Assembly (NCBI RefSeq): GCF_022808695.1
Contig: NZ_JAKZKW010000002.1
Coordinates: forward strand, 1 to 64,000
Length of the DNA stretch: 64,000 nt
DNA from: Fundidesulfovibrio soli
Lineage (GTDB): Bacteria > Desulfobacterota > Desulfovibrionia > Desulfovibrionales > Desulfovibrionaceae
Reading direction: 5' to 3'
Positions 38,074-56,323 of this stretch are shown one piece after another. The position numbers and the translations under genes were made by a program. Every line of letters begins with the position of its first letter. Position 1 is the first letter of the stretch. The notes below the pieces were generated by a model. That model ran no database searches and was not told where the DNA came from. It saw nothing but the letters and a program-made list of their open reading frames with translations.

Positions 38074-38087
38074 CCCTGCTGCAAGTA
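38059..38087 (+). promoter_or_regulatory. Possible tupA promoter in the fdhD-tupA divergent region
   Basis: A perfect TTGACA (38059-38064) precedes tupA by 51 bases; possible -10 sequences downstream (GTATTG or AAGTAT) are poor. TGACAT occurs twice as a direct repeat (38051-38056 and 38060-38065) with 9-base periodicity, overlapping the -35. Confidence 0.35.
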
Positions 38088-38115
38088 TTGTTCAGCAAAG
38101 AACAAGGAGACGTAA

Positions 38116-38940
38116 ATGAGAAAAGTCGCTGTTTTCCAGCTGATTGCCTGCATGATCCTCCTGAATTCCGCCTTCGCCCTGGCGCAGGACAAGGTGCTGA
38201 TGATGGCGACGACCACCAGCACGGAGGACACCGGGCTCCTCCCCGTGCTGGCCGAGGCGTTCAAGAAGAAGACCGGCGTGGAGCTGCGCTGGGTGGCCGT
38301 GGGCACCGGCAAGGCCCTGGAGCACGGCAAGGCCTGCGACGTGGACGTGCTCATGGTCCATGCCCCCGAAGCCGAGAAGAAGTTCATGGACGATGGCGCG
38401 GGCCAGGACCGGACCCAGATCATGTACAACGACTTCGTGCTCGTGGGCCCCAAGGCCGACCCCATGAAGGTCAAGGGCAAGACCTCCGCCGAGGCGCTGA
38501 AGGCCATCGCCGAGGGCAAGGGCGTGTTCATCAGCCGCGGCGACAAGTCCGGCACGCACATGGCCGAGCTCAAGCTCTGGAAGAACGCCGGCATGGAGAC
38601 CCCCGACAAGCAGGAGTGGTATGTCTCCCCCGGCCAGGGGATGCTCCAGGCCCTGCGCATGGCCTCCGAGAAGGGCGGCTACGCCCTGACCGACCGCGGC
38701 ACCTGGATCAAGTTCGAGGCCAGCCCCGAAGGCAAGGGCATGGCCATCGTGGTCGAGGGCGACAAGGCCCTGCTCAACCAGTACAGCGTGATCACCCTCA
38801 ACACGGCCGCCTGTCCCAAGGCGAAGCATGACCTGGCCAGGCAGTTCGCGGCGTGGATCGCCTCCCCCGAGGGCCAGAAGGTCATCGCGGACTTCAAGGT
38901 CATGGACAAGCAGCTGTTCTTCCCCAACGCCGGGAAGTAG
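38116..38940 (+). CDS. tupA: Tungstate ABC transporter substrate-binding protein
   Basis: A 274-residue periplasmic binding protein for tungstate. A Sec signal peptide (1-23, cleaved near ALA-Q) precedes the TupA ligand-loop motif TTTSTEDTG (32-40). The conserved SRGDKSGTH segment and the C-terminal YSVITLN region match the TupA/WtpA-type rather than ModA. It has an AAGGAGA ribosome binding site and is followed without any spacer by tupB. The import of tungstate next to fdhD and mobA suggests W-containing formate dehydrogenase. Confidence 0.93.
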   Translation: MRKVAVFQLIACMILLNSAFALAQDKVLMMATTTSTEDTGLLPVLAEAFKKKTGVELRWVAVGTGKALEHGKACDVDVLMVHAPEAEKKFMDDGAGQDRTQIMYNDFVLVGPKADPMKVKGKTSAEALKAIAEGKGVFISRGDKSGTHMAELKLWKNAGMETPDKQEWYVSPGQGMLQALRMASEKGGYALTDRGTWIKFEASPEGKGMAIVVEGDKALLNQYSVITLNTAACPKAKHDLARQFAAWIASPEGQKVIADFKVMDKQLFFPNAGK

Positions 38941-39636
38941 ATGGACTACCTGCTGGAGGGTCTCTCGCGGGCCGTGGACCTTCTGTCCACGGGGGACCCC
39001 GAGACGTTCTCGGCCGTGGCCGCCACGCTGGAGGCCACGGCCCTTTCCATGGGCATGGCCCTGGCTGTCGGGATGCCGGTGGGGTTCTGCCTGGGGTATT
39101 TCAACTTCCCGGGCAGGCGGCTGCTGCGCATGTGCTCGGACGCGCTCATGGCCTTCCCCACGGTGGTCATCGGCCTGCTGGTCTATGCCCTGCTGTCTCG
39201 CCGGGGTCCCCTGGGCGACCTGGATCTGCTCTTCACCATCCCGGGCATGGCCCTGGGCCTGACCCTGCTGGCCCTGCCCATGATCGCCAGCCTGACCGCC
39301 GCCGCCGTGGAGCAGCTGGACCCCAGGCTCCGCCTCACCCTGCTGACCCTGGGCGCGGACCGCCGCCAGCTGCTGCTGGGCATCCTCTGGGAGGCCCGCT
39401 TCGGCGTCGTGGCCGGGGCCGTGGCCACTTTCGGGCGCGTGGTTTCCGAGGTGGGTATCGCCATGATGGTGGGCGGCAACATCAAATGGCACACCCGTAC
39501 CATCACCACGGCCATCGCCCTGGAGACGGGCAAGGGCGAGTTCGCCCAGGGGGTCGCTCTGGGCGCGGTGCTCATGGGCATCTCCCTGCTGGTCAACGCG
39601 GCCCTGGTAGTGCTCCGGCGAAGGAGCGGCGCATGA
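38941..39636 (+). CDS. tupB: Tungstate ABC transporter permease
   Basis: A 231-residue inner-membrane permease with about five or six helices. The binding-protein-dependent permease signature, the EAA-type loop around GADRRQLLLGILWEARFGVVAG, contacts the ATPase. The ATG immediately follows the tupA stop, and the gene ends overlapping the tupC start in an ATGA, so all three transporter genes are tightly coupled. Confidence 0.93.
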   Translation: MDYLLEGLSRAVDLLSTGDPETFSAVAATLEATALSMGMALAVGMPVGFCLGYFNFPGRRLLRMCSDALMAFPTVVIGLLVYALLSRRGPLGDLDLLFTIPGMALGLTLLALPMIASLTAAAVEQLDPRLRLTLLTLGADRRQLLLGILWEARFGVVAGAVATFGRVVSEVGIAMMVGGNIKWHTRTITTAIALETGKGEFAQGVALGAVLMGISLLVNAALVVLRRRSGA

Positions 39637-40298
39637 GCGGCCCCCTCGTATACGAGATTTCGGGCCTCGAGCACCGCTTCGGGGATCGTGTGGCCACCCG
39701 TTGCGAGCATCTGGCCGTGGAGCAAGGCGGCATCGTGGGTCTGCGCGGCCCGAACGGCGCGGGCAAGAGCACGCTTCTGGCCATTATGGCCTTCCTGCTG
39801 GCTCCATCAACAGGCGAGGTGCTGTTCATGGGGCGTCCCGGGCTCTGCGGGGACCCGGCCCTGCGCCGCCAGGCCGTGCTCATGCCCCAGGACCCGGCCC
39901 TGCTGCGCCGCCGGGTGGAGGACAACGTGCTCTACGGCCTGCGTGTCAGGGGCAGGGAAGATCCGGGCAGCCTGCGGCAGGCCCTTGAGCTGGTCGGGCT
40001 TGATCCCCAAACCTATCGCCGCCGCTGGTGGTGGGAGCTTTCCGGCGGGGAAGGCAGGCGCGTGGCCCTGGCGGCCCGCCTGGCGCTCAATCCCTTGGTG
40101 CTGCTCCTGGACGAGCCCACCGCAAGCCTGGACCCTCAGAGTTCGGAGCTGGTTCGCCGCGCGGTGCTCAGCGCCAGGGACAAGCGCGGGCTCACCTGCG
40201 TCGTGGTCAGCCACGACCCGCAGTGGCTTGAAAGCCTCTGCGACGTGATACACACTGTCGAGCCTTGGGCCGCGGAACCCCAGGCCGCGATCCCCTGA
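39633..40298 (+). CDS. tupC: Tungstate ABC transporter ATP-binding protein
   Basis: A 221-residue ABC ATPase energising tungstate uptake. Walker A GPNGAGKS (39-46), signature LSGGE (137-141) and Walker B LVLLLDEP (156-163) are present, and the switch His lies in VVSHDP. The start is the ATG overlapping the tupB stop. A MobB-type gene follows after 18 bases and may be cotranscribed. Confidence 0.93.
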   Translation: MSGPLVYEISGLEHRFGDRVATRCEHLAVEQGGIVGLRGPNGAGKSTLLAIMAFLLAPSTGEVLFMGRPGLCGDPALRRQAVLMPQDPALLRRRVEDNVLYGLRVRGREDPGSLRQALELVGLDPQTYRRRWWWELSGGEGRRVALAARLALNPLVLLLDEPTASLDPQSSELVRRAVLSARDKRGLTCVVVSHDPQWLESLCDVIHTVEPWAAEPQAAIP

Positions 40299-40316
40299 AA
40301 GCCAAAGGAGGCGCCC

Positions 40317-41030
40317 ATGCGCGCTGTGAACGTTGTCGGATTCAAGGATACGGGCAAGACCACCCTCTGCGTGCGGCTCATCGCCGAGTTGTCCGCGCTG
40401 GGCGTGGAGGCCGCATCGCTCAAGTTCACGCATCAGGCCGGGCTGGACAAGCAGAACACGGACACGGCCAAGCTGCTCGCTGTCAGCCCCGCGGTGGGGG
40501 CCATCGGCGAGGGCGAGTCGGCCATGTTCTGGCGCGGCAAGCGCCACCTGGACCAGATGCTGCCCCTGCTGGGCCGCGACATGGTCGTGGTGGAAGGCGG
40601 CAAGGATCTGACCGTCATGCCCAGGGTGGTCATCGCGGCCAACGCGGCCCAGGCCCGCGACCTGGGCGCGGGCGCGGGCGGCCTGGCCATCGCGGTCTAC
40701 GGGCCCGAGGGCGTGGACGGCGTACCCGCCGTGACGGACGTGGCCGCCCTGGCCAAACTGGTGAACGAGCACGCCTTCCTGCTGCCCGGGCTGGACTGCG
40801 GGGGCTGCGGCCAGGCCGACTGCCGTGAGCTGGCCGCCAGCATCGTGTCAGGGGCTGTCGGGGTCGCGGGATGCACTTCCCTGGGCGGCAGCCTGGAAAT
40901 CACCGTGAACGGCGCACCCCTGGGCCTGAACCCGTTCGTGGGCCGCATGCTGCGCGCCGGGCTGGCCGGAATGCTCGGGGAGCTCAAGGGCGTCACGCCA
41001 GGCAAGGTCGTCATCACCATGGAGATGTAA
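40317..41030 (+). CDS. mobB: MobB-type GTPase fused to a four-cysteine Fe-S motif
   Basis: A 237-residue protein. The N-terminal half is a MobB-like P-loop protein (GFKDTGKTT, 8-16; VVVEGGKD around 91-97), which assists MobA in making MGD cofactor. After about residue 155 it carries Cys161, 164, 169 and 186 with spacing C-x2-C-x4-C-x16-C, the pattern of the small Fe-S domain found in RnfB and CODH proteins. A C-terminal segment (about 190-237) with GLNPFVGRMLRAGLAGMLG is unassigned. Strong AAAGGAGG. Its place behind tupABC suggests a role in tungsten or molybdenum cofactor assembly; the Fe-S part is inference. Confidence 0.88.
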   Translation: MRAVNVVGFKDTGKTTLCVRLIAELSALGVEAASLKFTHQAGLDKQNTDTAKLLAVSPAVGAIGEGESAMFWRGKRHLDQMLPLLGRDMVVVEGGKDLTVMPRVVIAANAAQARDLGAGAGGLAIAVYGPEGVDGVPAVTDVAALAKLVNEHAFLLPGLDCGGCGQADCRELAASIVSGAVGVAGCTSLGGSLEITVNGAPLGLNPFVGRMLRAGLAGMLGELKGVTPGKVVITMEM

Positions 41031-42762: not shown

Positions 42763-43188
42763 ATGTCCAGCAGTTATCTCGATGAGGTCTTGAAGCCTGA
42801 CCAGCGCGTCAACGCCCTGTTCAACCTGCTGGGTGTGCGCCCTGTCCGCCTGGGGGCGGATGGCGCCGAGCTGGAGCTGCCCTTCAAGCCTGACCTGCTG
42901 CAGGGCGCGGGCGTTCTGGCGGGAGGAGTGATGGCGGCGCTGGCCGACGAGGCGATGGCCCATGTGGTTCTGGCCAACCTGGAGCCCGGGCTGCAGACGG
43001 CCACCATCGAGATGAGCGTGCGCTACTTCCGCCCCGTGCTGCGCAGCGGCCTGCGCGCGGCGGCATCACTGGTCAACAAGGGCAAGAAGATCATCAGCGC
43101 CGAGGCCACCGTGACCGACGATCAGGGGCGCCTGGTCTGCAAGGCGAGCGCATCGTTTTTCGTGGTGGATAGACGGCAGGGGGCTTGA
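42763..43188 (+). CDS. PaaI-family hotdog thioesterase
   Basis: A 141-residue hotdog-fold protein. The GVLAGGVMAALADEAMAHV helix and the ATIEMSVRYFRPV strand match the PaaI/YdiI acyl-CoA thioesterase group, whose members release free acids from aryl- or acyl-CoA. The substrate cannot be told. The gene stands alone on the plus strand, convergent with uspA; the preceding 213 bases show no other gene. Confidence 0.88.
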   Translation: MSSSYLDEVLKPDQRVNALFNLLGVRPVRLGADGAELELPFKPDLLQGAGVLAGGVMAALADEAMAHVVLANLEPGLQTATIEMSVRYFRPVLRSGLRAAASLVNKGKKIISAEATVTDDQGRLVCKASASFFVVDRRQGA

Positions 43189-43190
43189 AT

Positions 43191-43228
43191 CGGGGCCGCG
43201 GCGGGCGTCACGCCGCGCAACGGCCCCG
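43191..43228. terminator. GC-rich hairpin between convergent genes
   Basis: CGGGGCCG (43191-43198) pairs with CGGCCCCG (43221-43228), with an inner five-bp stem (43199-43203 with 43211-43215). It lies between the convergent thioesterase and uspA genes. There is no T-run, so bidirectional termination is only suggested. Confidence 0.4.
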
Positions 43229-43236
43229 CGTCCGGC

Positions 43237-43650
43237 TCAGCGGACGACCAGTACGCTGCAGGGGGCTTGGCTGACCACCTTGCTGGCGACGCTGCCGATG
43301 AGGAAGCGGTCCAGTTTGGTCTTGGCCCTGCTGCCCATGATGATCAGGTCGGGTTTGGCCTTCTCGGCATAGGTCAGGATCGTGTCGGCGGGCGAGGTGC
43401 CGTACTCGAGAGCCGTGCTGACCTCCATGCCCATCTTCTTGGCCTCCCCGCGGGCCTTTTCCAGGGAGTTGCGGGCGAAGTCCATCAGCTGTTGGCTGAC
43501 GCTTTCAGGAATCCCTTCGCCGAAATCGACGAAATCCTCCACCACGGTGAACAGCACAAGTTCGGCGTTTTTCGACTTGGCCAGATCCACGGCCTTTTCG
43601 AGAAGAGCGGGAGCGGTCGGTGAGAAGTCAAGGCAGGCAATCATTTTCAT
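43237..43650 (-). CDS. Universal stress protein, UspA family
   Basis: A 137-residue single-domain Usp protein. The ATP-binding signature is seen as G-SRAK...IGSVASKVV near the C-terminus, ending APCSVLVVR. I start at the ATG at 43650, six to seven bases after GAGAGG; the longer frame to 43701 has no such site. It is the last gene of a minus-strand series headed by the sigma-54 promoter at 47.1 kb, 47 bases after the preceding gene, and may be its distal member. Confidence 0.9.
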   Translation of the reverse strand: MKMIACLDFSPTAPALLEKAVDLAKSKNAELVLFTVVEDFVDFGEGIPESVSQQLMDFARNSLEKARGEAKKMGMEVSTALEYGTSPADTILTYAEKAKPDLIIMGSRAKTKLDRFLIGSVASKVVSQAPCSVLVVR

Positions 43651-43697
43651 GGCATACCTCTCATCTGGTTTCGCCGTGGCACGATGCCGGCGGCACG

Positions 43698-44516
43698 TCA
43701 CTCATTTCCGTCTTTCTTGATGCCGGAGGGCAATTCCACCATGTAGCCAGGTTTACATGCGCCCGTCACCATCCGGGCTGTGCAGTCGTCTGATTGGCAG
43801 CCGTCCACCAGCGCTTCACCCGTCTGTATGCCGCGCTCGTCGAAGACCGGAACGTGCACGCCGGTCCGCAGGCCGTGTCTGGTGCCCATGGAAAAGGCTA
43901 TCACCATGCCGTTTTCGTCCTTCTTGGCCAGATAGACCACCGCCTGGCCATTTTGGGCCAGAATACGCTCAAACGTGCGGTTTGCAAGGTATCCGGCAAC
44001 CCCGAAAGGCAGCGCGAGCAGCAGCATGGCGACGCTCGCGCTGAAGGGGTGAACCCCGGTGGCCCGCGTGACGAATGAGGGCGAAGCGCTCCGCATGGCG
44101 TCCGCGTTGGCGTGTACGGTAACAGCTATGATCAGGGGCTTGGGGGCAGGGGCCAGGGGGTCTGTGGAGGGCCCGGTGAGCGTGAAAATGGTCTTCCCGG
44201 GGGGGGCGTCCTCGGCGATGAGCACATCGCCCCGCCACATGGTGCCGCCCAACCAGAAACCGCTGAACTCGCTCTGTGGAGTGAGGCTCACCTGACCGTC
44301 GCCGCCCTGCACGATGATGTCGCGGATGGTGGCCGCGCCCTGCGGCAGGGGGGCCGTAACGGGCTGGGTGGAGCCGGGCAGGCCCTGGAGGTCGCGCTGT
44401 TCGCCCTTGAAACCGGCGGCCAGCCCGTCAGCCAGGCAGGCCAGGGCGGCGAAGAGCAGGGCGGAGGCGATCCAGCCGGAAAACCTGCGCACATTCTGGC
44501 AATCGGAAATGTTCAT
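43698..44516 (-). CDS. Membrane protein of unknown function with periplasmic domain
   Basis: A 272-residue protein I do not recognise. A first hydrophobic helix (about 12-31) is followed by an extracytoplasmic region of mostly beta character (about 35-155), a second helix (about 158-178, SASVAMLLLALPFGVAGYL) and a cytoplasmic domain of about 90 residues with a possible beta-barrel (GTRHGLRTGVHVPVFDERG). Two Cys in the C-terminal part (DGCQSDDC) could bind metal. The ATG at 44516 is preferred to the GTG at 44522. It lies between a small membrane gene and uspA. Confidence 0.8.
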   Translation of the reverse strand: MNISDCQNVRRFSGWIASALLFAALACLADGLAAGFKGEQRDLQGLPGSTQPVTAPLPQGAATIRDIIVQGGDGQVSLTPQSEFSGFWLGGTMWRGDVLIAEDAPPGKTIFTLTGPSTDPLAPAPKPLIIAVTVHANADAMRSASPSFVTRATGVHPFSASVAMLLLALPFGVAGYLANRTFERILAQNGQAVVYLAKKDENGMVIAFSMGTRHGLRTGVHVPVFDERGIQTGEALVDGCQSDDCTARMVTGACKPGYMVELPSGIKKDGNE

Positions 44517-44597
44517 GGGCACCTGATGTCACGTTCGGGAAGGGAAGGAAAGCCGCGCACGAACAATCTGTGCTGAACGCCCGGGTGAGCGGGCCTC

Positions 44598-44813
44598 TCA
44601 GGCTGCGTCCGGCTCGCTGCGGACCTTGTCGCGCAGCAGGCGGATCAAAGTGATGCCGCCCAGCAGGGTGGGCACGAAGAGGGAGAAAAAGGCCTTGCAG
44701 AAGGCGGGGGTGAAGTTCTCGGGATCGTGCGAGGCGGCGTACATGCCCACGCAGAGCTCCACGAGAATGGCCACGTCCACGGCGATGAGGGTGATCTTCT
44801 GCTTGGCGTTCAT
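44598..44813 (-). CDS. Small two-helix membrane protein
   Basis: A 71-residue protein with two predicted transmembrane helices (about 7-28 and 41-60) and a charged C-terminus (RDKVRSEPDAA). The ATG at 44813 has a clear AAGGAG eight bases upstream, which supports a real gene. No family recognised. It follows the lipoprotein gene after a 145-base gap containing a large hairpin. Confidence 0.8.
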   Translation of the reverse strand: MNAKQKITLIAVDVAILVELCVGMYAASHDPENFTPAFCKAFFSLFVPTLLGGITLIRLLRDKVRSEPDAA

Positions 44814-44856
44814 TCCATTTTCTCCTTGGGTCGCGCTGGGCGCTTCTGCTGTTGGG

Positions 44857-44910
44857 TCCAGAGTCGGAGGGCCGGCGATGGGGGGTCGAGGTCCGGCCCT
44901 CCGCTCTGGA
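44857..44910 (-). other. Large intergenic hairpin
   Basis: TCCAGAG and GGAGGGCCGG (44857-44863, 44866-44875) pair perfectly with CCGGCCCTCC and CTCTGGA (44893-44902, 44904-44910), giving 17 base pairs with one small internal loop and a 17-base apex. No T-run follows on either strand. In the minus-strand transcript it could stabilise or stop the mRNA between the lipoprotein gene and the small membrane gene. Confidence 0.6.
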
Positions 44911-44958
44911 GGTATGGCTGGCGGCCGCGGTGGGGGGGTGCGGCCTTACCTGCCTCTA

Positions 44959-45561
44959 CTACTTCTTGAAGATGTCGGTCTTGCTGATGTTCATGAACCG
45001 CAGCGCCTTGCCTTCGTCCTTGTAGTACACCCGGACTTCGTCGCCGGCGTCCCAGGTGGCGTCGGGCCAAGCCATGTACTCGTCAGGCACGCTGAAGGTC
45101 ACGAGCAGCTTCTGGCGGCCGGAGTAGATGGTGACGGTCTTCTTGGCCTTGTCGACCATGGGGAACTGCTTGGCCTTGCTGGCTTCCTTGTCGAACACCA
45201 GGGGGTGGTCCTTGTCCACGTTCTCCTGGATGTCGTGGATCTTGAAGTTGATGGTCTTGAAGGCCTGAGCCTGGGGATCGAAGATCACGATCTGGCTCTT
45301 CTGGGTGTCCAGCTTCATGCGCAGGCCGGCCTTGGGCGCGGGGCCGGTCTCGGCGGGGTCTACGGGCATCTGGTACACCACCGGAGGCAGGCCGTTGTAG
45401 TCAGGGGCGGCCGGGTCGGCCTTCTTGTCCCTGATGAAAGTGACCTTCTTGGCGTCCTTGTCGAAGGCCACGACTCTGCCCTGATCCACCTTGCCGAAGT
45501 CGCTGCAGCCCAAGAGAGAGGCCAGCGCCAGAGCGGCCAAGAGAAGTGGGAATCGCTTCAT
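44959..45561 (-). CDS. Lipoprotein of unknown function (DUF4881-like)
   Basis: A 200-residue lipoprotein with signal peptide and lipobox LLGC (lipidated Cys19). The mature part is rich in Lys and Asp, predicted mostly beta, and resembles the DUF4881 proteins of sulfate reducers; I am moderately sure of that label. The ATG at 45561 is eight bases after AAGGAG, so it is preferred to an ATG two codons earlier that sits too close. It is 30 bases downstream of the TauE-type transporter, which suggests a joint role at the membrane. Confidence 0.85.
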   Translation of the reverse strand: MKRFPLLLAALALASLLGCSDFGKVDQGRVVAFDKDAKKVTFIRDKKADPAAPDYNGLPPVVYQMPVDPAETGPAPKAGLRMKLDTQKSQIVIFDPQAQAFKTINFKIHDIQENVDKDHPLVFDKEASKAKQFPMVDKAKKTVTIYSGRQKLLVTFSVPDEYMAWPDATWDAGDEVRVYYKDEGKALRFMNISKTDIFKK

Positions 45562-45591
45562 GTTCATTGCTCCTTGGCTCTGTTGTTGCGT

Positions 45592-46644
45592 TTACGCGGC
45601 CTTCTTGGCGGCGAGTTCCATCTTGGCGCCCTGGATCATCTTCACGAAGATGTAGAGGCTCATGCCCGCCACCAAGCCCAGGATGAGCACTGTGGAGGCA
45701 ACGTCCATGGCGTAGTTGAGCTGCTTGAAGGTAGACCCGATCATCTTCATTGCGATGGAAACCGCGCAGCCAATGACCGCCAGGCCGAAGGCGATGCGGA
45801 TGCCGTAGCCCTTGATGTACTTGGTGGCCACGGTGCCCACCTGGGCGCCGATGGATGCGCCGCAGAGCATGATGATGGCGGCCACGAGCTCGGTGCGGCC
45901 CTTGAAGGTGTAGGAGGCGGCGCCGTAGAGGCCCGAGATCATGACTTCGAAGAGGTCCGTGCCCACGGCCACGTGGGTGGGGCAGCCGACCAGGTAGATC
46001 AGGGCGGGCATGCGGATGAGACCGCCGCCGATGCCCAGGATGCCAGCCAGCCAGCCGGTGAGGAAGCTCACGCCGATGGGCAGCCAGGCCGAGCAGGTGA
46101 TGCCGGCGGCCTCAAGGGTCACCATGGGAGGAATCTTGATCTTGTGCAGGGTCTTGTGCCACTCGATGCCGGTAGCCAGAGCGTCCACTTCCTTGCCGGC
46201 GGCCTTGGCGGCGCGTTCCTTCTGGCGGCGCTTGTTGACATCGTGGAAGACCATCCAGGCGATGAGGAAGAGCAGGCCCAGGTAGATGTAGCGCACGACC
46301 TTCTCGACACTGCCTATGCGCTCGAGCCACATGACCATCTGCGCGCCGACCTCGAAGCCGCCGACTGTGCCGACGATCATGATCATGCCCAGTTTGTAGT
46401 CCACGTTGCCGAACTTGCCGTGGCGCATGGTGGCGATGAGGGACTTGCCCGCCATGTGGGCGATGTCCGTGCCGATGGCGAAGGCCATGGGGAAACCGAG
46501 AATGTTCAGGCCGGGGGTGACCATCCAGGCGCCGCCCATGCCGAAGAAGCCGCCGATGATGCCCACGCCCACACCGAGGATGATGAGGCCGGGCCAGAAG
46601 ATCTTAACGCCCGCGATGGGCATGAGGATATAGAGCCATTCCAT
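45592..46644 (-). CDS. TauE/SafE-family transporter (putative sulfite/organosulfonate exporter)
   Basis: A 350-residue inner-membrane protein with about eight helices. The duplicated TauE/SafE signature is visible: GVGVGIIGGFFGMGGAWMVTP near residue 25 and GWLAGILGIGGGLIRMPALIY in the second half. Family members export or import sulfite, sulfoacetate, sulfonates or related anions. The Shine-Dalgarno AAGGAG lies seven bases before the ATG. It is the second gene after a perfect sigma-54 promoter and opposite a membrane-bound enhancer-binding protein, so its expression is probably switched by a signal sensed outside the cell. Confidence 0.9.
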   Translation of the reverse strand: MEWLYILMPIAGVKIFWPGLIILGVGVGIIGGFFGMGGAWMVTPGLNILGFPMAFAIGTDIAHMAGKSLIATMRHGKFGNVDYKLGMIMIVGTVGGFEVGAQMVMWLERIGSVEKVVRYIYLGLLFLIAWMVFHDVNKRRQKERAAKAAGKEVDALATGIEWHKTLHKIKIPPMVTLEAAGITCSAWLPIGVSFLTGWLAGILGIGGGLIRMPALIYLVGCPTHVAVGTDLFEVMISGLYGAASYTFKGRTELVAAIIMLCGASIGAQVGTVATKYIKGYGIRIAFGLAVIGCAVSIAMKMIGSTFKQLNYAMDVASTVLILGLVAGMSLYIFVKMIQGAKMELAAKKAA

Positions 46645-46664
46645 GTTGGTTCTCCTTGCCGGGC

Positions 46665-46955
46665 TTAGTGTTCAGCCAGTTCGCGGGACTTCAGGTCCAG
46701 ACCGATCCAGTGCATGATGATGTCCGCCAGCACGCCGAAGATCACACCGATCAGCGGGATCAGGATGACGGTCAGGATGGTGAAATACAGGTGGCTCTCA
46801 TTGTAGAGATTGGCCCACCAGGCCATGATGCCGGTCAGCTTGCGGGTATCCGCAACCAGGACGATGGGTGCTCCACCTCCGCCTGCGGCCAGCGCCAGGC
46901 CGGGCGCTCCCAACGCGAGCATCAACGTGATAGCCAGTTGTGTGATCCTCTTCAT
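46665..46955 (-). CDS. Small membrane protein preceding the TauE-type transporter
   Basis: A 96-residue protein with a signal peptide (about 1-23), a short Gly-rich segment and a long hydrophobic region (about 52-77) near the C-terminus, ending KSRELAEH. The start is the ATG at 46955 behind a strong AAGGAGGA; the frame is open upstream without a site. It is the first gene after the sigma-54 promoter, 20 bases before the transporter. It may be an accessory subunit; no family recognised. Confidence 0.85.
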   Translation of the reverse strand: MKRITQLAITLMLALGAPGLALAAGGGGAPIVLVADTRKLTGIMAWWANLYNESHLYFTILTVILIPLIGVIFGVLADIIMHWIGLDLKSRELAEH

Positions 46956-47089
46956 CTGTGCTCCTCCTTGGTGTTCCTGCCAGTTCTCCACCGGGCCGGG
47001 GCTCCACCCCGGACATCCCGGATTGATAGCCACCGTGGGCGGGCCGGTCCTGCGCCGGCCCGAAAAACGCGCAAAATCAGCATTTGTAC

Positions 47090-47105
47090 AGCAACCCGCG
47101 TGCCA
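47090..47105 (-). promoter_or_regulatory. Sigma-54 promoter of the TauE operon
   Basis: On the minus strand the sequence is TGGCACGCGGGTTGCT, an exact match to the -24/-12 consensus TGGCAC-N5-TTGCW. The expected start of transcription is near 47079, about 120 bases before the first gene (46955). A divergent enhancer-binding protein gene starts 126 bases away. The leader contains an 8-bp hairpin (47040-47062). Confidence 0.88.
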
Positions 47106-47202
47106 AGTTCTAAAACTTGACGGAATGCTTGAGGAAATATATTATCGCGCAAGCTTGAACGCCTTGTTGTAACTTGATCTCGTGTGAATTTGCGCGTCTT
47201 GA
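47104..47202. promoter_or_regulatory. Putative enhancer region with CTTGA repeats
   Basis: Between the sigma-54 promoter and the divergent regulator gene, CTTGA occurs five times in the same orientation (47116, 47128, 47154, 47173, 47198). An inverted repeat CAAGTT-CTAA-AACTTG (47104-47119) and the palindrome CAAGCTTG (47150-47157) include some of them. This is where activator binding sites of a sigma-54 promoter are expected. Binding is inference. Confidence 0.5.
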
Positions 47203-47230
47203 GAGCATCGCGCGTAGCAGGAGGCGGGGT

Positions 47231-49777
47231 ATGGGCTTTTTCGCGCCACAGCGGCCGGTTCGTGGGAGCCTGGCTGAGAACCTGGGGAGGTTCTCGGCCA
47301 TGAGCGTGCGCAACAAGCTTCTGGTGACGATCATTCCGCTGGTCTCGCTGGTGCTGCTGGCCACGGGCTACGCCACCAGGCTCACTGCCGTCCGCTACCT
47401 CAACCTGGCCCTGGAGCGCACCACCAAGGTGCTGACCATGGGGCAGGCCAACGCCCTGACCGAGTATTTCGAGAACGCCAGGGAAGACATCCTTCTGCTT
47501 GCGCGAGGCGACATCGACGAGGAGCCGATCCGCGCGATACTCTCCATCCAGGCGCACGTCCGCCCTGGCAACTACCGCGAGGTGGCCTACATCCCGGCCA
47601 ACGGTGATGCTCCCCTCATGCTGGTGGACACAGGCCAGGAGGTGGTCCGTCTCACGAAGGAGCAGTGCGAGCGGGTCTTCAACTCTCCGCTCATGGCCCC
47701 TTCGCGGCTCCAGAGCCCCAAGGCCGGCTCGGTGACACTGGTGGGCCTCTCGGAATCCATCTACCCGCCGGGACTGATCCCCAGCCTGAGCAGCGGGTTG
47801 ACCCTCGCCGTATTCCGCATGGTCACGCCGGTGACCGACAAATCAGGCAAGGTGCTCGGCTTCTGGGTGATCTCCCTGGACGGCCGGGCCGCGCGGGACA
47901 TCCTCTCCCTGCACAACTCCCCCAAGTCGCCCCTTGCGGCATTCGCGCGCACGGCCGTGAAGCGCTACAGTTTCTTTTTCGACAGCAACGGCTGGATATT
48001 GTTCCAGTCCGGCAACCACGAGGACAAGGAATCCACCTTGGCCACCGACGTTGCCCGCTCCGGCCTCTCCGGGGATCACGGGATGCCGGGCCTGCACAGC
48101 GCGTTCAGGCCTGCCGCCTCCAACGAGACCTACTGGCGCATGGTTGTGGACGTGCAGAACGGCCAGACCGGCATAGAAAGCGTAGGGGCGGAGCTGGATC
48201 CCACCGTGACCTCGCACGACAGCTACGCCTTGGGGTATTCCCCCGTGTTTTTCATGAGTTCGCCCGAGAAGGGCCTCGAGGTTGTGGGCGGCGTGGCCTT
48301 CATGGACCGCTCCAAGCTTGTTATTGCCGCCGAGTACAGGATATTCGACGTGCTGCTGCTCATCTTCGTGGCAGCGCTCTTTGTCAGCGCCATCGTGCTC
48401 GTGCTGGTGGGGCGCTACATCACCCGGCCAGTGCTCGACTTGGCCCGGGCGGTGCGCTCCATGCCCCAGAACGGGGAACTGGCCCTGCTCGAATTGCCCA
48501 TGCGCGACAAGGAGACCACGGAGCTCAAGGACGCCATCAACACCTTGGTCGTCTCCCTGATCGGGCAGAAGGACGAACTCAAGATCAAGGATGCGAGCCT
48601 CAGGGACTATCTGAACAGGCAGCCCCTTGATCTTGAGAAGAAAGTCACCGCAGCCCGCGACGACGAGCCGGTGGAAGGCATCGTCGGGGCGAGCTCCGGG
48701 ATGCGGCAGTTCAAGCAGCTGGTGCGCAAGGCCGCGTCAGTTGACGCGGACGTGCTCATCGTCGGCGAGACGGGCACGGGCAAGGAAGTGACGGCCCAGG
48801 CCATCCACCACATGTCCCGTCGGGCAGGGGGCCCCTACATCACCATGAACTGCGGCGCACTGGACGAAAACCTGCTCATGGACGCGCTCTTCGGGCACGT
48901 CAAAGGCGCATTTTCCGAGGCCAAGACCGACCGCAAGGGGGCGTTCCTGGCGGCCAGCGGCGGGTCCATCCTTCTCGACGAGATCGGCAACGCCTCCCCC
49001 AAGGTGCAGCAGGCACTGCTGCGCGCCCTGGCCGCGCGGACGATCATCCCGCTGGGCAGCGACCAGGAGGTGGCCTTTGACGCCCGGGTCATCGCGGCCA
49101 CAAACGAGAACCTGATGGAGTGCGTGGAGCAGGGGACCTTCCGTGAAGACCTCTATTACAGGTTGAAGGTGCTCACCCTCCAGACCCTGCCCTTGCGCGA
49201 GCGCAAGGAGGATATCCCGCTGCTGGTGGACGCCTTCATCCGGGAGTCGTCCCAGGTGATGCGCAAGGGCCCCGTGACCCTGAGCCAGGGCGCCTGGGAG
49301 CGCATCGCCGCGCACGACTGGCCGGGCAACGTCCGTGAGCTCAAGCATTGTCTCATGCGCGCGGTGGCCATGGCGGATTCCAGCGTCATCCTCATGGAGG
49401 ACCTGCGCTTCGAGGGCCAGGCCGAGGCTCAGAAAGCCAGGCCGATCCCGCCGGAGGACGGTCCCGCTTCCGTGCGGGAAGTTTCAGGCCGGGAGGGTGC
49501 GTCACGGACTGTTCCGGCTGCCGCTCCCGTGTCGGCCCAGGATCAGCCTGCCCAGGCCGTCGATGCCCTGAACCCCCGCCAGCGTCTCGGGCTGGCCTAC
49601 ATTCGCGAGAACGGCAGCATGTCGCGTGCCCAATACCAGGGCATCGTGGGGCAGAACGTGCCCCCGCGCACCGCGCAATACGATTTGCGCGATCTGGTGG
49701 AACGGGGCTTGCTGGTCGTCAAGGGACGCGGCCCCGCGACGCGCTACCATCTGCCGGCGGAAGGCAAATCCAGCTGA
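47231..49777 (+). CDS. Membrane-anchored sigma-54-dependent enhancer-binding protein
   Basis: An 848-residue regulator. Two transmembrane helices (about 25-45 and 375-395) enclose a large Cache-like periplasmic sensor, followed by a HAMP-like linker and an AAA+ domain (about 480-715) with Walker A GETGTGKE (512-519). The sigma-54 contact loop reads GAFSEA (559-564) instead of GAFTGA. After a Pro/Ala linker the C-terminus is a winged helix (LNPRQRLGLAYIRENGSMSR and TAQYDLRDLVERGLL) rather than a Fis helix-turn-helix. The ATG at 47231 is six bases after AGGAGG. It is divergent from the sigma-54-promoted TauE operon, its likely target. Confidence 0.9.
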   Translation: MGFFAPQRPVRGSLAENLGRFSAMSVRNKLLVTIIPLVSLVLLATGYATRLTAVRYLNLALERTTKVLTMGQANALTEYFENAREDILLLARGDIDEEPIRAILSIQAHVRPGNYREVAYIPANGDAPLMLVDTGQEVVRLTKEQCERVFNSPLMAPSRLQSPKAGSVTLVGLSESIYPPGLIPSLSSGLTLAVFRMVTPVTDKSGKVLGFWVISLDGRAARDILSLHNSPKSPLAAFARTAVKRYSFFFDSNGWILFQSGNHEDKESTLATDVARSGLSGDHGMPGLHSAFRPAASNETYWRMVVDVQNGQTGIESVGAELDPTVTSHDSYALGYSPVFFMSSPEKGLEVVGGVAFMDRSKLVIAAEYRIFDVLLLIFVAALFVSAIVLVLVGRYITRPVLDLARAVRSMPQNGELALLELPMRDKETTELKDAINTLVVSLIGQKDELKIKDASLRDYLNRQPLDLEKKVTAARDDEPVEGIVGASSGMRQFKQLVRKAASVDADVLIVGETGTGKEVTAQAIHHMSRRAGGPYITMNCGALDENLLMDALFGHVKGAFSEAKTDRKGAFLAASGGSILLDEIGNASPKVQQALLRALAARTIIPLGSDQEVAFDARVIAATNENLMECVEQGTFREDLYYRLKVLTLQTLPLRERKEDIPLLVDAFIRESSQVMRKGPVTLSQGAWERIAAHDWPGNVRELKHCLMRAVAMADSSVILMEDLRFEGQAEAQKARPIPPEDGPASVREVSGREGASRTVPAAAPVSAQDQPAQAVDALNPRQRLGLAYIRENGSMSRAQYQGIVGQNVPPRTAQYDLRDLVERGLLVVKGRGPATRYHLPAEGKSS

Positions 49778-49824: not shown

Positions 49825-52461
49825 ATGGACCGGATGCACAGTCCGATTCTCGCTAACCTCAAGAGGTTGCTGCTCCCCCTTATCGGCCTCAAGCCCCAGC
49901 CGGTCAGGAAAGACCAGAACGCCTTCAGGTTCAAGTACGCCAACTTCCAGGAACTGCTCGAATCGAATTCCGACGTGCTGCGCACCATCGCCTCCCTTGA
50001 GGAAATGCTGCCCGGGCGCGAGGTCTTCGGCATGTCCTTCCTTCAGTCCTCTGCAAGCCAGGCGGTATTTCATTGCCTGCGAATGCTCCGTGGATACGAA
50101 AACCTCTCAGGCGAAAAGCTGCCCGTCCTGCGGGAGAGGATCGAGGCCGTCCGTGAGGAGCTCAAGAATATTCTGGCCTCCGGCCGGGGCGTCGCCCAAG
50201 GCCCCTGGTTTCTCGATCTGGACGAAATCGCGCCAGCGAGTGGCGAGTATGTGGGCGGTAAATGCGCAAACCTCGCGGAAACGCGCAATCGCGCAAAAAT
50301 GCCGGTGCCCGACGGCTTTTGCGTGACCACTTCTGCCTTCAGGGCTTTTCTCGAACACTCCGACCTCGATGCCGAAATCGCCAAGCGCACCATGGGGCTG
50401 GACGCCGCCGACCCTGCCTCACTGCAACTGGCCAGCGAGGATATCCAGCGCATGATCCTGCTGGCTCCTTACCCTGACGGTTTCGAGACAGAACTCCTGG
50501 AACGCCACGCGGCCCTGGCCCGGCGGACCGGGCGGGACAACGGAGATTTCAGGGTCGCGCTTCGCTCCAGCGCCGTGGGCGAGGACGGGGCCTTGAGCTT
50601 CGCCGGGCAGTACCTCTCGGTGCTCGGCGTCGCGCCTGGCAAGGTGGCGGAGAGTTACCGCTATGTCGCCGCAAGTTTGTATACCCCACGGGCAATCGCC
50701 TATCGCCTGCTCAAGGGCGTGCCGGACGAAGCCGCATCCATGGCCGTCGCCTGTCTCGAGATGGTTTGCTCCCGAGCCAGCGGGGTGCTTTACACGCGCC
50801 ATCCCTTCGATGCCGGCAACACGGATGTCCTCATCAACGCCGTATGGGGTTTGGGCCCGTACGCTGTGGACGGCGTGGTCAACCCCAACCGTTTCAGCGT
50901 AAGCCGGGAAACCCTGGAGATCGTCTCGCAGGACATTCCAGGCCAGGAGGTCAGGCTGGAGTGCGGCCCTGCTGGCGGGTTGGTGGAAACCGTCGTGGAG
51001 CAGGACCGCAGGGCGCTAGCATGCCTGTCTGAGCTTGAGGTCAAGACCCTGGCCGAATGGGGGCTGCAGCTCGAAGAGCATTTCGGTTCACCACAGGATG
51101 TGGAATGGGCCCAGGACCAGGCCGGGCGTCTGCTGATCCTTCAGTCCAGGCCGCTCGCATCCGGAGTCGAAGGCGGGGCAACCCAGGCGCGACGAAAGGC
51201 TCTGGAGGGCTATGCCGTGCTGGCCGAAGGCGGGGATGCGGCCTGCCCCGGGTCTGGATTCGGACCGGTCTACATCGTGCGGCGCGAGGACGATCTGGCG
51301 GAGTTTCCCCAGGACGGGGTGCTTGTGGCCGGGCACTCCTCACCTTCATTCATGGTGGCCATGAACAAGGCCAGCGCCATAGTAACCGAGCATGGCAGCG
51401 TGACCGGGCATATGGCCTCGCTGGCGCGGGAGTTCGGCGTGCCGACGGTGCTTGGGCTGCGCGGCGCGATGGACACCCTGAAGCCTGGCGAGATGGTCAC
51501 GGTGGACGCCACGAACCGCCGTGTCTACATGGGGCGGGTCGAGCCGCTGCTCGATCAGAACCAGGGGGTATCCGCCCCCATGCTGGGCACCCCGGTGCAT
51601 GATCTGCTCAAACGCGTGAGCGCCCTCATCTCCCCGCTGCATCTGGTGGACCCCAAATCACCAAAGTTCACGCCCCAGCATTGCACCACGCTGCACGACG
51701 TCACACGCTTCCTGCACGAACGCTGCTACGCGGCCATGTTCCGTCTGGGTGACCAGGCTTCGGGCGAGGGCGGCATGGCCGTCCACCTCGACGTGGGCAT
51801 CGGGCTGGACCTGCACGTCATCGATCTGGGCGGCGGCCTGCGAGATGAAGTGGGTGACGCCGACACGATCACGCGCGCCGACGTGATCTCATTGCCCTTC
51901 AAGGCCCTGCTGCACGGCCTGGCCGACAGGGATTTCGTGGCAAGCGGCCCCAGGCCGGTGCAGCTGCGCGGGTTTCTGTCCGTGATGGGGCGGCAGATGA
52001 TCGACGGGGCGAATCAGGGCGCGGAGCGTTTCGGCGAGAAAAGCTACGCCATCATCTCGGACAAGTACCTCAATTTCAGCTCTCGCGTGGGCTACCACTA
52101 CGGCGTGCTGGACAGCTACTGCGGCAAGACCGTGGCCAAGAACTACATCACCTTCGCCTTCAAGGGCGGGGCCGCAGGGGAGGATCGCCGGGAGCGCCGC
52201 GCCAGGGCTATCGCCCTGATACTGGAGTCTCTGGGCTTCAAGGTGGCCGTGACCGGAGACCGGGTGGAGGGGCGTTTCCAGAAGTATACGCCCGACGTCA
52301 TCGAGGAGAAGCTGGTGCAGATCGGCCGGCTGCTGCAGTTCACCCGCCAGACGGACATGCTCATGACGAGCGACAGCGCTGTGCCCGCCATGGTGGAGAG
52401 CTTCTTGCGCGGGGACACGGTGTTCGGGGCATCCTGCCCGTTGCCATCAAGCGACGCTTGA
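49825..52461 (+). CDS. PEP-synthase-like phosphotransferase without PEP-binding barrel
   Basis: An 878-residue protein. An N-terminal region (1-130) of unknown type is followed by a PPDK/PEP-synthase ATP-binding domain (about 140-460, with GGKCANLAETRN and RSSAVGEDGALSFAGQY). The swivelling phosphohistidine domain comes next, with the active His529 in TGHMASLAREFGVP. The C-terminal 270 residues (about 600-878) are not the TIM barrel that binds pyruvate/PEP in PEP synthase and PPDK. So the phosphoryl acceptor is unknown. It follows the enhancer-binding gene by 47 bases, with AGGGAGGA before the ATG, and may be cotranscribed with it. Confidence 0.85.
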   Translation: MDRMHSPILANLKRLLLPLIGLKPQPVRKDQNAFRFKYANFQELLESNSDVLRTIASLEEMLPGREVFGMSFLQSSASQAVFHCLRMLRGYENLSGEKLPVLRERIEAVREELKNILASGRGVAQGPWFLDLDEIAPASGEYVGGKCANLAETRNRAKMPVPDGFCVTTSAFRAFLEHSDLDAEIAKRTMGLDAADPASLQLASEDIQRMILLAPYPDGFETELLERHAALARRTGRDNGDFRVALRSSAVGEDGALSFAGQYLSVLGVAPGKVAESYRYVAASLYTPRAIAYRLLKGVPDEAASMAVACLEMVCSRASGVLYTRHPFDAGNTDVLINAVWGLGPYAVDGVVNPNRFSVSRETLEIVSQDIPGQEVRLECGPAGGLVETVVEQDRRALACLSELEVKTLAEWGLQLEEHFGSPQDVEWAQDQAGRLLILQSRPLASGVEGGATQARRKALEGYAVLAEGGDAACPGSGFGPVYIVRREDDLAEFPQDGVLVAGHSSPSFMVAMNKASAIVTEHGSVTGHMASLAREFGVPTVLGLRGAMDTLKPGEMVTVDATNRRVYMGRVEPLLDQNQGVSAPMLGTPVHDLLKRVSALISPLHLVDPKSPKFTPQHCTTLHDVTRFLHERCYAAMFRLGDQASGEGGMAVHLDVGIGLDLHVIDLGGGLRDEVGDADTITRADVISLPFKALLHGLADRDFVASGPRPVQLRGFLSVMGRQMIDGANQGAERFGEKSYAIISDKYLNFSSRVGYHYGVLDSYCGKTVAKNYITFAFKGGAAGEDRRERRARAIALILESLGFKVAVTGDRVEGRFQKYTPDVIEEKLVQIGRLLQFTRQTDMLMTSDSAVPAMVESFLRGDTVFGASCPLPSSDA

Positions 52462-52783: not shown

Positions 52784-53170
52784 CTACAGCCCCTTGGCGG
52801 CCCTCCGCTCCACGGCGGAGAGGATCTTGGCGGCCACGTCGTCCGTGGGGCAGGGTTTGAGCAGATAGTCAGAGCCGCCCTTGCCCATGATCTCCGCCGC
52901 GATGTCCACGGAGGCGTGCCCGGTGAGCACGATGACCTCCAGGTTCGGGTCGCGTTTCTTGAGCTCGGCCAGCAGCTCCACGCCGGACATCCCCGGCATC
53001 TTCACATCCACCAGGGCCACGTCGAAGGCTCCAGGGGCGAAGGACTCCAGGGCCTGTTCCCCGCTGAAGGCCGTGGTCACCTCCATCTGGCGCATGGAGA
53101 GCAGCCGGGCCAGGGTGGAGACGAAGCGCTCCTCGTCGTCAACTATGAGCAGGCGGATGGGGCTTTTCAT
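52784..53170 (-). CDS. Single-domain response regulator
   Basis: A 128-residue receiver with no output domain. The acidic pair D11-D12, phosphoacceptor D55 (in VALVDVKMPG), Thr in VLTGHAS and K105 (YLLKP) are all in place. Its start overlaps the end of the upstream kinase gene by 32 bases, so the two proteins are almost certainly partners. It closely resembles the receiver at 54265-54654 (both contain LTGHASV). Confidence 0.92.
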   Translation of the reverse strand: MKSPIRLLIVDDEERFVSTLARLLSMRQMEVTTAFSGEQALESFAPGAFDVALVDVKMPGMSGVELLAELKKRDPNLEVIVLTGHASVDIAAEIMGKGGSDYLLKPCPTDDVAAKILSAVERRAAKGL

Positions 53171-54080
53171 TGCTGGGCTCCGTGCCGGGCGCGCCGGCGA
53201 GTGTGATGGTGAAGACCGCGCCGGACCCGGGCTGGTTGGCGGCGGTTATCAAGCCGCCGAGCCGGTCCACGATGCGCTGGGTGATGGCCAGGCCAAGGCC
53301 GGTGCCCTTGCCGGGCGCCTTGGTGGTGAAGAAGGGGTCGAACACCCGGGAGAGGTGCTCGGCCGGGATGCCGGGGCCGGTGTCGGCCACGCGGATGTAG
53401 GGCCGCCCATCGGGGTGGAGGCCCGTCGAGGCGGTCACGCTGCCGCCCGGGCTTACGGCCTGCAAGGCGTTGACCAGCAGATTGAGCACCGCCTGGCGCA
53501 GCAGGGGAGGGTCCACCGGGACGGGGGGCATGCCCGGCTCGAACTCGCGGCGCAAGGTGATGTTGCGGGGCGAGGCCTCGCGTTCCACGAGGCGCAGCAT
53601 GTCCTCCACGAGGCGGCTGAGGTCCGCGGGCTGGCGAACGGGCTTCCAGTTGCGGGCCAGCCCCAGCAGGTTGTGGGTGATGTCCGCGCAGCGGCGCACC
53701 TGGGACTGCACCCCGGCCAGGCTCTGGCGCAACTCGGCCGCGTCGGGCTCCGGCTGGGCGAGCAAGTGCCCCATCCATTCGGCCTCCTGGGTGATGACGG
53801 CCAGGGGGTTGTTGATCTCGTGGGCTATGCCCGAGGCGATCTCGCCGATGGCCGCCAGCTTCTGGGATTGCAGGAGCTGCTCGTCCAGGGCGCACTTCTG
53901 CGATTCGAGGCGCTCCACGCACTCCTGCGAGCGCCTGAGCAGCCGCCAGGCGAGCAGGCAGGCCCCCGCTCCCGGCAGCAGGGACCACGGCGGCGGCGCG
54001 ACTGCCGTCAGCAGGATGAGCAGGAGGGCCGCCGCGCCCTGGACGCCCTGGCTGGAGGCGAGTTGTCGCAGCGGGGTCAT
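53139..54080 (-). CDS. Sensor histidine kinase (short, membrane-linked)
   Basis: A 313-residue kinase. A hydrophobic N-terminal stretch (about 14-48) probably makes one or two membrane helices with almost no external domain. Phosphoacceptor His87 is in IAHEINNPLA, and the HATPase domain follows with N-box (NLLVNALQAV), DTGPGIP, FFTTK and GTGLGLAIT motifs. It is followed with a 32-base overlap by a receiver gene. The signal is unknown; a neighbouring longer kinase (54668-56323) has a full Cache sensor. Confidence 0.9.
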   Translation of the reverse strand: MTPLRQLASSQGVQGAAALLLILLTAVAPPPWSLLPGAGACLLAWRLLRRSQECVERLESQKCALDEQLLQSQKLAAIGEIASGIAHEINNPLAVITQEAEWMGHLLAQPEPDAAELRQSLAGVQSQVRRCADITHNLLGLARNWKPVRQPADLSRLVEDMLRLVEREASPRNITLRREFEPGMPPVPVDPPLLRQAVLNLLVNALQAVSPGGSVTASTGLHPDGRPYIRVADTGPGIPAEHLSRVFDPFFTTKAPGKGTGLGLAITQRIVDRLGGLITAANQPGSGAVFTITLAGAPGTEPSNEKPHPPAHS

Positions 54081-54264
54081 GGCGTTTCCGGGAGTGGCCG
54101 GGAGGAAGGGCGGGGAGGGCGAACGCGGACGGTCCCGGCGGCGTGCCGCGCGCGGGGCGGGAGGGGCGTGCGTTGGCCGAAGGGCGGCGCCCTGTGGATT
54201 CCCGTGTTCGGCATGTGTATTCCGCTCGCGCCGGGGATGGGGGAGGAGTCCGCCGGGCTGAAGG

Positions 54265-54654
54265 CTAGGACCCGCTTCCGCTCAAGCGCTTTCGTTCGTA
54301 GGCCTGGCCGATGGCGGCCAGCAGCTCGTCGAAGTCCACGGGCTTGAGCAGGTAGGAGTTTGCCCCGATGGACATCCCCAGTACGCCCGACTCCACGGAG
54401 GCGTGCCCTGTGAGCAGGATGACCTCCACCTCGGGGGTGCGCTTCTTGAGCTCGCGCAGCACCTCGATCCCGTCCATGCCGGGCATCATGATGTCCAGCA
54501 GGGCCACGTCGAAGCTCTTGGCTGACAGCAGCTCCAGGGCCTCCGGGCCGGAGAGGGCCGTCTCCGCCTCGAAGCCCCTGCGCCGCAGCCGCTTGACGAT
54601 GGTCTCGTTGTAGTCCCGCTCGTCATCGACCACCAGTATCCGCGCCTGATCCAT
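54265..54654 (-). CDS. Single-domain response regulator
   Basis: A 129-residue receiver: D10-D11, phosphoacceptor D54 (ALLDIMMPG), LTGHAS Thr and K104 (YLLKP) present, no output domain. It lies 13 bases after the Cache kinase gene and 184 bases before the second kinase. The pair with 52784-53170 looks like a duplicated kinase-receiver module. Confidence 0.92.
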   Translation of the reverse strand: MDQARILVVDDERDYNETIVKRLRRRGFEAETALSGPEALELLSAKSFDVALLDIMMPGMDGIEVLRELKKRTPEVEVILLTGHASVESGVLGMSIGANSYLLKPVDFDELLAAIGQAYERKRLSGSGS

Positions 54655-54667
54655 GCCGCCTCCTTCG

Positions 54668-56323
54668 TCAGACCGCCGGGACGTAGACAGTGAAGGTGGT
54701 CCCCTTCCCCAGCGTGCTCGTCACGGTGATGCGCCCGCCCAGCTTTTCGATGATCCCGAAGGCTATGGCCAGGCCGAGCCCGGTGCCTTCGCCGGGCTTC
54801 TTGGTCGTGAAGAAGGGGTCGAAGATCTTGTCCAGCGTTTCCGGTGAAATGCCGCAGCCCGTGTCGGTGAATACGGCCGCGAGTTCGTTCTTGTCGGCGT
54901 GGTAGCGGGTGGTCAGGGTGATCTGCCCGTTCTTGCCGATGGCGTCGATGGCGTTGTCGATGAGATTCAGGAACACCTGCTGCAGTTGCGTCGGGTCCGA
55001 CTTGGTGGGGGGCAGGTTCTCCCCGAGGGTCAGGCGCACGTCGATGTTGCGCAGCAGGGCTTCGGTCTTGAGGAACTGCACTGTCTCGCCCAGGAGCTTG
55101 TTGAAATCCACCTCGTGCAGGGATGGCTCCATCCTGCGCGCGAACCCGAGCATGCGGTGGGTCACGGTCTTGGCGCGCTCCACGTGGTGCTCGATGCGGT
55201 GCACGGAGTCGTAGATTTCCTTGAATTGGGGCACGGCCTTGACCTCGTCCTCTTCAAGCAGGTCCTTGATCCAGCCGGCCTGCTCGCGGATGATGGCCAG
55301 GGGGTTGTTGATCTCGTGGGCCACGCCCGCCGCCATCTTGCCCAGGGCGGCCATCTTGCCGGACTGGGTGAGGTTGGCGTCCAGCTCGGCCTTCTCGCGC
55401 TCGGCCTTCTCCAGCCTGCGCACCATGGAATTTGTGACGATGACGGTGCCGGCGATGATCACGGCCACGCCCCCGGCCAGCAGCAGCCAGACGAGGTATT
55501 CGGCTTCGAACAGGGGACGCAGTTCGTCCTCGGGGTCTTCGCGGATGACCAGCATCCAGTCCTTGTTTTCGAGCCACGTCCAGCCATACAGATAGGAGCG
55601 GTGGCTCACCGTGAGCTCCTGCACGCGCACGCCCTGGAAGCGGCCCTCCACGCGGAAGGGCAGCTCCATGTCCTCCATGGCGTGGCCGCCGAAGCGGGGG
55701 TTGGTTTGGAGCACCTGCTTGTCGTTGAGCAGGAAGGCGTCGCCCTTGCGGCCCATCTGCACGCGCTTCACGAAGGATTCGAAGATGTCGGAGTCGATGG
55801 TGGCCCGCACGATCCAGGATCGGTTGCCCTCCCGGCGCAGCACCGCGATGATGATGTGGGGCACCTTGCGGAAACCAAGGAACACGTCCGAGATGTAGAC
55901 GCCCTTGGACGTGACCTTGGCGAACCACTCCTCGTTCTTGTAGTTCAGGCCCTCCAGGTTGTAGGGCCCGGCGTAGGCCATGTGGTAGCCGTCCATGCCG
56001 ATGACGCCGATGTCGATGTAGTAGCGCGTGGAGCTCTGCATGAGCGCGAAGATGCGCTCCAGCGCGGGCTGATCGGAGGATTCCTCAAAGCTGAGGGCGC
56101 TGGCCAGGGTCGTCACCTGGCTCAACCGCTCGTTGAGGAAGAGGTCGATTGCGTTGCGCTTGCTCTCCACCAGGGTGCGCAGGTTGCCTCGCAGGGCGTC
56201 CTGGTAGGCGCTGGAGAAGCGTTGCTTGATCCCGATGCCCAGCACCAGCAGCGGCAACAGTGAAAAACCCACCGTGAACACGATGATGGAGAGGCGCAGG
56301 CGTTTAAAATCGAGTGTTTTCAT
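54668..56323 (-). CDS. Cache-domain sensor histidine kinase
   Basis: A 551-residue kinase. Transmembrane helices at about 12-34 and 285-308 flank a periplasmic double-Cache-type sensor, which in this family binds small ligands such as organic or amino acids. The phosphoacceptor His336 is in VAHEINNPLA, and the ATPase domain has DNAIDAIGK, FFTTKKPGEGTGLGLAI motifs. The start ATG (MKTLDFKRLRLS) is at 56323; the longer open frame upstream crosses a divergent gene. Its neighbour 13 bases on is its likely receiver. Confidence 0.92.
   Translation of the reverse strand: MKTLDFKRLRLSIIVFTVGFSLLPLLVLGIGIKQRFSSAYQDALRGNLRTLVESKRNAIDLFLNERLSQVTTLASALSFEESSDQPALERIFALMQSSTRYYIDIGVIGMDGYHMAYAGPYNLEGLNYKNEEWFAKVTSKGVYISDVFLGFRKVPHIIIAVLRREGNRSWIVRATIDSDIFESFVKRVQMGRKGDAFLLNDKQVLQTNPRFGGHAMEDMELPFRVEGRFQGVRVQELTVSHRSYLYGWTWLENKDWMLVIREDPEDELRPLFEAEYLVWLLLAGGVAVIIAGTVIVTNSMVRRLEKAEREKAELDANLTQSGKMAALGKMAAGVAHEINNPLAIIREQAGWIKDLLEEDEVKAVPQFKEIYDSVHRIEHHVERAKTVTHRMLGFARRMEPSLHEVDFNKLLGETVQFLKTEALLRNIDVRLTLGENLPPTKSDPTQLQQVFLNLIDNAIDAIGKNGQITLTTRYHADKNELAAVFTDTGCGISPETLDKIFDPFFTTKKPGEGTGLGLAIAFGIIEKLGGRITVTSTLGKGTTFTVYVPAV

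Follow-up and report, generated by a model that had tools for sequence, protein, structure and literature searches.

A conserved sigma-54 promoter facing a DVU0151-type membrane-anchored activator in Fundidesulfovibrio soli and its probable role in a dedicated switch for a TauE/SafE operon

In Desulfovibrio vulgaris, DVU0151 has been described as a single-component activator with a GAFSEA motif and an unusual winged-helix domain, and the operon DVU0150-DVU0146, which has a sigma-54 promoter and was labelled 'transmembrane transport', was predicted to be its target (main text of Kazakov et al. 2015; PMC4641369). According to the same main text, other sigma-54 TSUP/PSE operons of Desulfovibrio, such as DVU0132-DVU0133, likewise have a TSUP-type transporter under a sigma-54 promoter. 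In the literature searched, the 2015 regulome paper was the only one found on DVU0147-DVU0152.

The locus studied here lies in a window (i.e., the whole stretch of DNA analysed) of 64,000 nucleotides from Fundidesulfovibrio soli. Compared with the description of the DVU0151 regulon of D. vulgaris Hildenborough in that main text, the activator type, the sigma-54 operon and the first operon gene are alike. The activator has the GAFSEA motif, a long N-terminal region and a winged-helix domain, as in the published account; the 96-aa product of the first operon gene matched the DVU0150_fam model (NF040783.1) with 144 bits against a cut-off of 70; and with its five conserved genes the operon equals DVU0150-DVU0146 in gene number. 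Since the family match is at twice the cut-off and five genes are conserved, the locus can be placed as a new member of the published DVU0151 regulon, and the activator is treated here as an orthologue of DVU0151 based on the family model, the features given in the main text and synteny. The system is thus largely known, the pairing having been predicted earlier in D. vulgaris (PMC4641369, main text). It differs from the regulon as described there in the UspA gene at the operon end. Moreover, the N-terminal region of DVU0151 was termed 'unknown' in the main text, whereas its counterpart here is predicted to adopt a double-Cache fold. No TTGCGCGA-like sites, sigma-70 promoter of the activator or double-Cache sensor were found in the main text of PMC4641369; the present analysis therefore extends the published picture by a map of these sites, a hypothesis of autorepression, a predicted double-Cache fold and a survey of two target types.

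Table 1. Features of the sigma-54 locus of F. soli, with positions counted from the first letter of the window (contig NZ_JAKZKW010000002.1, 1 to 64,000).
Feature	Position	Strand	Basis
Universal stress protein (UspA)	43237..43701	-	PF00582; synteny
Membrane protein, 274 aa, two hydrophobic segments	43698..44522	-	synteny; no family match
Small membrane protein, 71 aa, two hydrophobic segments	44598..44813	-	synteny; no family match
DUF4881 lipoprotein	44959..45567	-	PF16222, E=1e-80
TauE/SafE (TSUP) permease	45592..46644	-	PF01925, E=2e-40
DVU0150-family small membrane protein, 96 aa, first operon gene	46665..46955	-	NCBIfam NF040783.1
Sigma-54 promoter, TGGCACG(CGGG)TTGCT	47090..47105	-	exact consensus match; kept in 37/40 relatives
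Predicted sigma-70 promoter of the activator, TTGACG-17-TATTAT	47117..47145	+	10/12 consensus bases
Predicted activator-binding site 1, TTGCGCGA	47145..47152	-	~43 bp upstream of -24; genus conservation
Predicted activator-binding site 2, ACGCGCAA on the minus strand, one mismatch	47190..47197	+	genus alignment
Predicted activator-binding site 3, ACGCGCGA, two mismatches, degenerate here	47208..47215	-	genus alignment
Membrane-anchored sigma-54 activator, 848 aa, DVU0151 type	47231..49777	+	domains, motifs, TM segments

The exact sigma-54 consensus that the earlier note had claimed on the minus strand was recovered as the 16-mer TGGCACGCGGGTTGCT, which reads from 47105 to 47090 and faces the operon. 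It is the single exact match of TGGCACGNNNNTTGCT in the window, where 0.03 would be expected from shuffled sequences, and the looser pattern TGGCACN5TTGC also matched once (0.23 expected). The GG at -24 and the GC at -12 are correctly spaced, which together with the exact match and its conservation makes a sigma-54 promoter very likely, and the sequence fits the Desulfovibrio consensus tGGcacg/tTGCt (PMC4641369, main text). Counting from the -12 GC (C = 47091), the predicted +1 falls at 47079, the same figure as in the earlier note, with a leader of ~125 nt (46956-47079) ahead of the DVU0150-family gene; the activator does start divergently 126 bases from the promoter edge, with its ATG at 47231. 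The rpoN gene is present in a single copy in the genome. The same promoter-gene pairing, for which a search in relatives had been suggested, was sought in the ~15-kb surroundings of 40 activators related to this one, taken from the bacterial family. A near-consensus promoter upstream of the related activator (score of at least 13 of 14.7) was found on the operon strand, in the same orientation, in 37 of the 40 and on the opposite strand in one, with 0.5 promoter-like sites expected by chance in first-order Markov sequences.

In 30 of these 40 neighbourhoods, a TauE gene is found on the strand opposite to the activator together with a DVU0150-family small protein, the permeases adjoining the activator being 61-97% identical, and in the TauE loci DUF4881 and the two small membrane proteins are often present too in unchanged order. 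The sequence supports the TauE/TSUP operon as the target of the promoter, and the Pfam assignments agree with the earlier identification of a TauE-type transporter and UspA, while the lipoprotein falls in Pfam DUF4881. The activator is 91% identical to its counterpart in Fundidesulfovibrio agrisoli SG106, and a contig search with the activator alone gave F. agrisoli as the sole close relative, besides a single distant AAA+ match.

For the first operon gene, the ATG at 46955 is the most likely start. The DUF4881 lipoprotein is hydrophobic in a segment at its N terminus, its Cys21 is invariant, and it is predicted to be mostly beta-strand; its predicted structure had no significant fold match in the PDB, and a function based on that structure was therefore dropped. 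No paper on DUF4881 was found, and the 71-aa and 274-aa membrane proteins had no family match in Pfam or NCBIfam. Since a gap of 145 bp separates DUF4881 from the 71-aa gene, the operon may be more than one transcript. The UspA gene is possibly the last operon gene; among the relatives, a terminal Usp gene was observed in this genus only, and in many of them the promoter and the DVU0150-family gene are separated by a Usp gene, in place of or besides one at the end. In congeners a Usp gene also occupies the place of 46956-47079; it is absent here and in the closest relative, where Usp is present at the operon end only. The anion export or import proposed earlier for the operon is a reasonable suggestion. 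TauE-like proteins need not be sulfite exporters, since interruption of another TauE-like gene of Desulfovibrio, DVU0251, accompanies high fitness under nitrate (PMC4001038). Downstream of the activator, and often kept beside it, a protein with a PPDK ATP-grasp domain (PPDK_N) and a phospho-His swivelling domain is encoded at 49825..52461 (+), the C-terminal 300 residues of which have no PEP/pyruvate-binding barrel in Pfam; as many relatives also have it behind the activator, it could be part of this system.

The activator, the ATG of which is preceded by AGGAGG, is a membrane-anchored sigma-54 activator, as had been stated earlier. Its two TM segments (30-48 and 374-392) enclose a predicted periplasmic domain of double-Cache fold, and it further has a HAMP domain (weak by sequence, E=0.0018), an AAA+ domain (PF00158, E=2e-59 in Pfam) and a winged-helix type C terminus. 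The translation contains GETGTGKE, LLDEIG and GAFSEA, i.e., the Walker A and B motifs and a GAFTGA-type loop; among 41 activators the loop reads GAFSEA in 17 and GAFTEA in 15. An RTAxxDL-type motif in the C terminus is present in 41/41, and this region matched HTH_20 weakly, as it did the C-terminal part of a Fic-family protein (E=0.0047). A Fis-type C-terminal HTH, a feature typical but not universal of bacterial enhancer-binding proteins, had no match in the activator, and the same exception, a winged helix instead of Fis, was published for DVU0151 (PMC4641369, main text).

Pfam lists no Cache model for the periplasmic domain, and the double-Cache assignment therefore comes from the predicted fold. 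The AlphaFold2 model of the domain has a mean pLDDT of 78, i.e., moderate confidence, and Foldseek matched it to the double-Cache domains of TlpA and TlpC with a probability of 1.00 and a TM-score of up to 0.69 on the target. These Helicobacter pylori chemoreceptors resemble the predicted sensor at 10-13% identity, and their output is a chemotaxis signalling domain, whereas that of the activator is a sigma-54 AAA+ domain. As the ligands of the nearest structures vary and the identity is so low, a ligand was not assigned from the Cache fold. The extracellular signal proposed in the earlier note could thus be retained in the sense of a periplasmic one, based on the predicted domain, but it names no ligand.

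Between the activator and the promoter, TTGCGCGA-like sites occur at 12.6 per kb, whereas their density is 1.4 per kb elsewhere in the loci and 1.2 per kb in intergenic DNA of other regions. TTGCGCGA alone is common in the window, with 8 matches (3.7 expected). Across the genus, the sites are placed about -43, -89 and -109 relative to the -24 element, and the first of them keeps exact register. Here, sites 2 and 3 both carry mismatches, and the position of site 3 reads TTGCGCGA in 5/6 congeners. A composite pattern, TTGCGYGA-N25..50-promoter, was found in 25 of 149 genomes, against one match of the reversed pattern used as control; of the matches, 15 are at most 400 bp from the start of an activator, and for another 5 this distance is ~2 kb. 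In this genome the pattern occurs once, at the promoter 47090-47105, and nowhere else, so a wider regulon in the genome was discarded. The sigma-70 promoter predicted for the activator is the sole match in 43000-47400, where 0.8 would be expected; its TTGACG is kept in 5/6 congeners, and outside the genus the promoter is less conserved. Site 1 overlaps the -10/+1 of this promoter, which suggests, as far as the sequence goes, that the activator represses its own synthesis.

Three explanations other than a dedicated switch could account for parts of this picture. Sites with at most one mismatch to the sigma-54 consensus are not above chance in the window (4 found versus 5.5 expected), which speaks for a chance consensus without function. 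However, the retention of the site in 37/40 relatives, with place and orientation the same, led to the rejection of a chance match as hardly credible, and the functional significance of the promoter is very likely. It is also unlikely, although less so, that the TTGCGCGA-like sites serve another DNA-binding protein, such as a repressor or nucleoid protein, and that the activator binds elsewhere. Binding by the activator is deduced only from where the sites lie and how enriched they are, a large number of them deviate from the motif and the spacing between them varies outside the genus, all of which would suit another binder. On the other hand, the sites are enriched about ninefold upstream of the activator, they recur at the composite promoters of kinase/DASS operons facing the same activator family, and they are nearly absent beside the nine other exact sigma-54 sites of the same genome, with 2 in all, although 6/9 of those loci were not strand-oriented in the scan.

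The promoter could, moreover, be real and the operon be under another sigma-54 activator, e.g., a two-component response regulator, while the neighbouring activator acts elsewhere. Six further activators with strong matches are listed in the genome, and TSUP operons of Desulfovibrio can obey response regulators, as with DVU0110/DVUA0057 on DVU0132-DVU0133 (PMC4641369, main text). This was considered quite improbable, because the DVU0150-family gene is almost never found without this activator (of its 71 matches in the bacterial family, 69 are no more than 3.5 kb from the start of an activator) and the upstream sites track this activator family across differing target operons.

The dedicated one-component sigma-54 switch, taken as a whole with the activator, the upstream sites and the operon, is accordingly the explanation held with considerable confidence. 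Promoter conservation, gene order, domain content and site enrichment are read from the sequence, whereas binding, activation, autorepression, ligand and transported substrate are inferred. The activator would be made from its own sigma-70 promoter and inserted in the inner membrane, where its double-Cache domain would sense a small periplasmic molecule, the signal being relayed by HAMP to the AAA+ ring. The winged helix would hold the activator on the three TTGCGCGA-like sites, so that it could remodel the sigma-54 RNA polymerase waiting at 47105-47090 and switch on the DVU0150-family, TauE, DUF4881 and two membrane protein genes, and binding at the promoter-proximal site would also limit activator synthesis. 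The operon would most likely carry a small anion across the inner membrane. Such a mechanism would be nothing unusual among sigma-54 switches.

Nine of the 40 relatives (L059, L066, L070, L071, L073, L074, L075, L076 and L077) have the same activator family facing an operon of another kind, which encodes a histidine kinase with a double-Cache domain, two response regulators, of which one has CBS, a Na+/anion symporter of the DASS type and, in many cases, a Yip1 protein. The activator tree requires three target changes, which are forced by well-supported branches, although one of the three depends on L074, where the DASS match is weak (23%). In five genomes (G074, G093, G036, G013 and G077), ~2 kb separates the composite pattern from the activator, and in L066 the pattern is flanked by the genes for the kinase and the first response regulator. 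No mention of a pairing between the activator and a DASS operon was found in the main text of PMC4641369, a statement confined to that text. Since the same regulator type and site kind occur with TSUP/DVU0150-family genes or with DASS/double-Cache kinase genes, the two may share a ligand class. It is conceivable, but doubtful at present, that the double-Cache winged-helix activator family is an interchangeable extracellular-anion sensor in Desulfovibrionaceae serving two unrelated transporter classes.

Sulfate reducers have many TSUP transporters, several of them sigma-54-controlled, and the substrates of these proteins are not established (PMC4641369, PMC5840216). With a conserved dedicated sensor and its predicted DNA sites beside a TSUP transporter, finding the ligand to which the promoter responds should give a lead to the transported substrate, and the swap between TSUP and DASS would narrow the candidates to those common to both, e.g., sulfur oxyanions, sulfonates or carboxylates.

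Elsewhere in the window, the translations at 37333-41030 read as an FdhD-like protein followed by a tungstate-type ABC transporter (binding protein, permease and ATPase), after which a MobB-like protein is encoded at 40317-41030. On the other side, two response-regulator/histidine-kinase pairs, also identified from their translations, adjoin the activator block at 52784-56938 (-), and response-regulator genes related to these pairs recur near the activator in other genomes.
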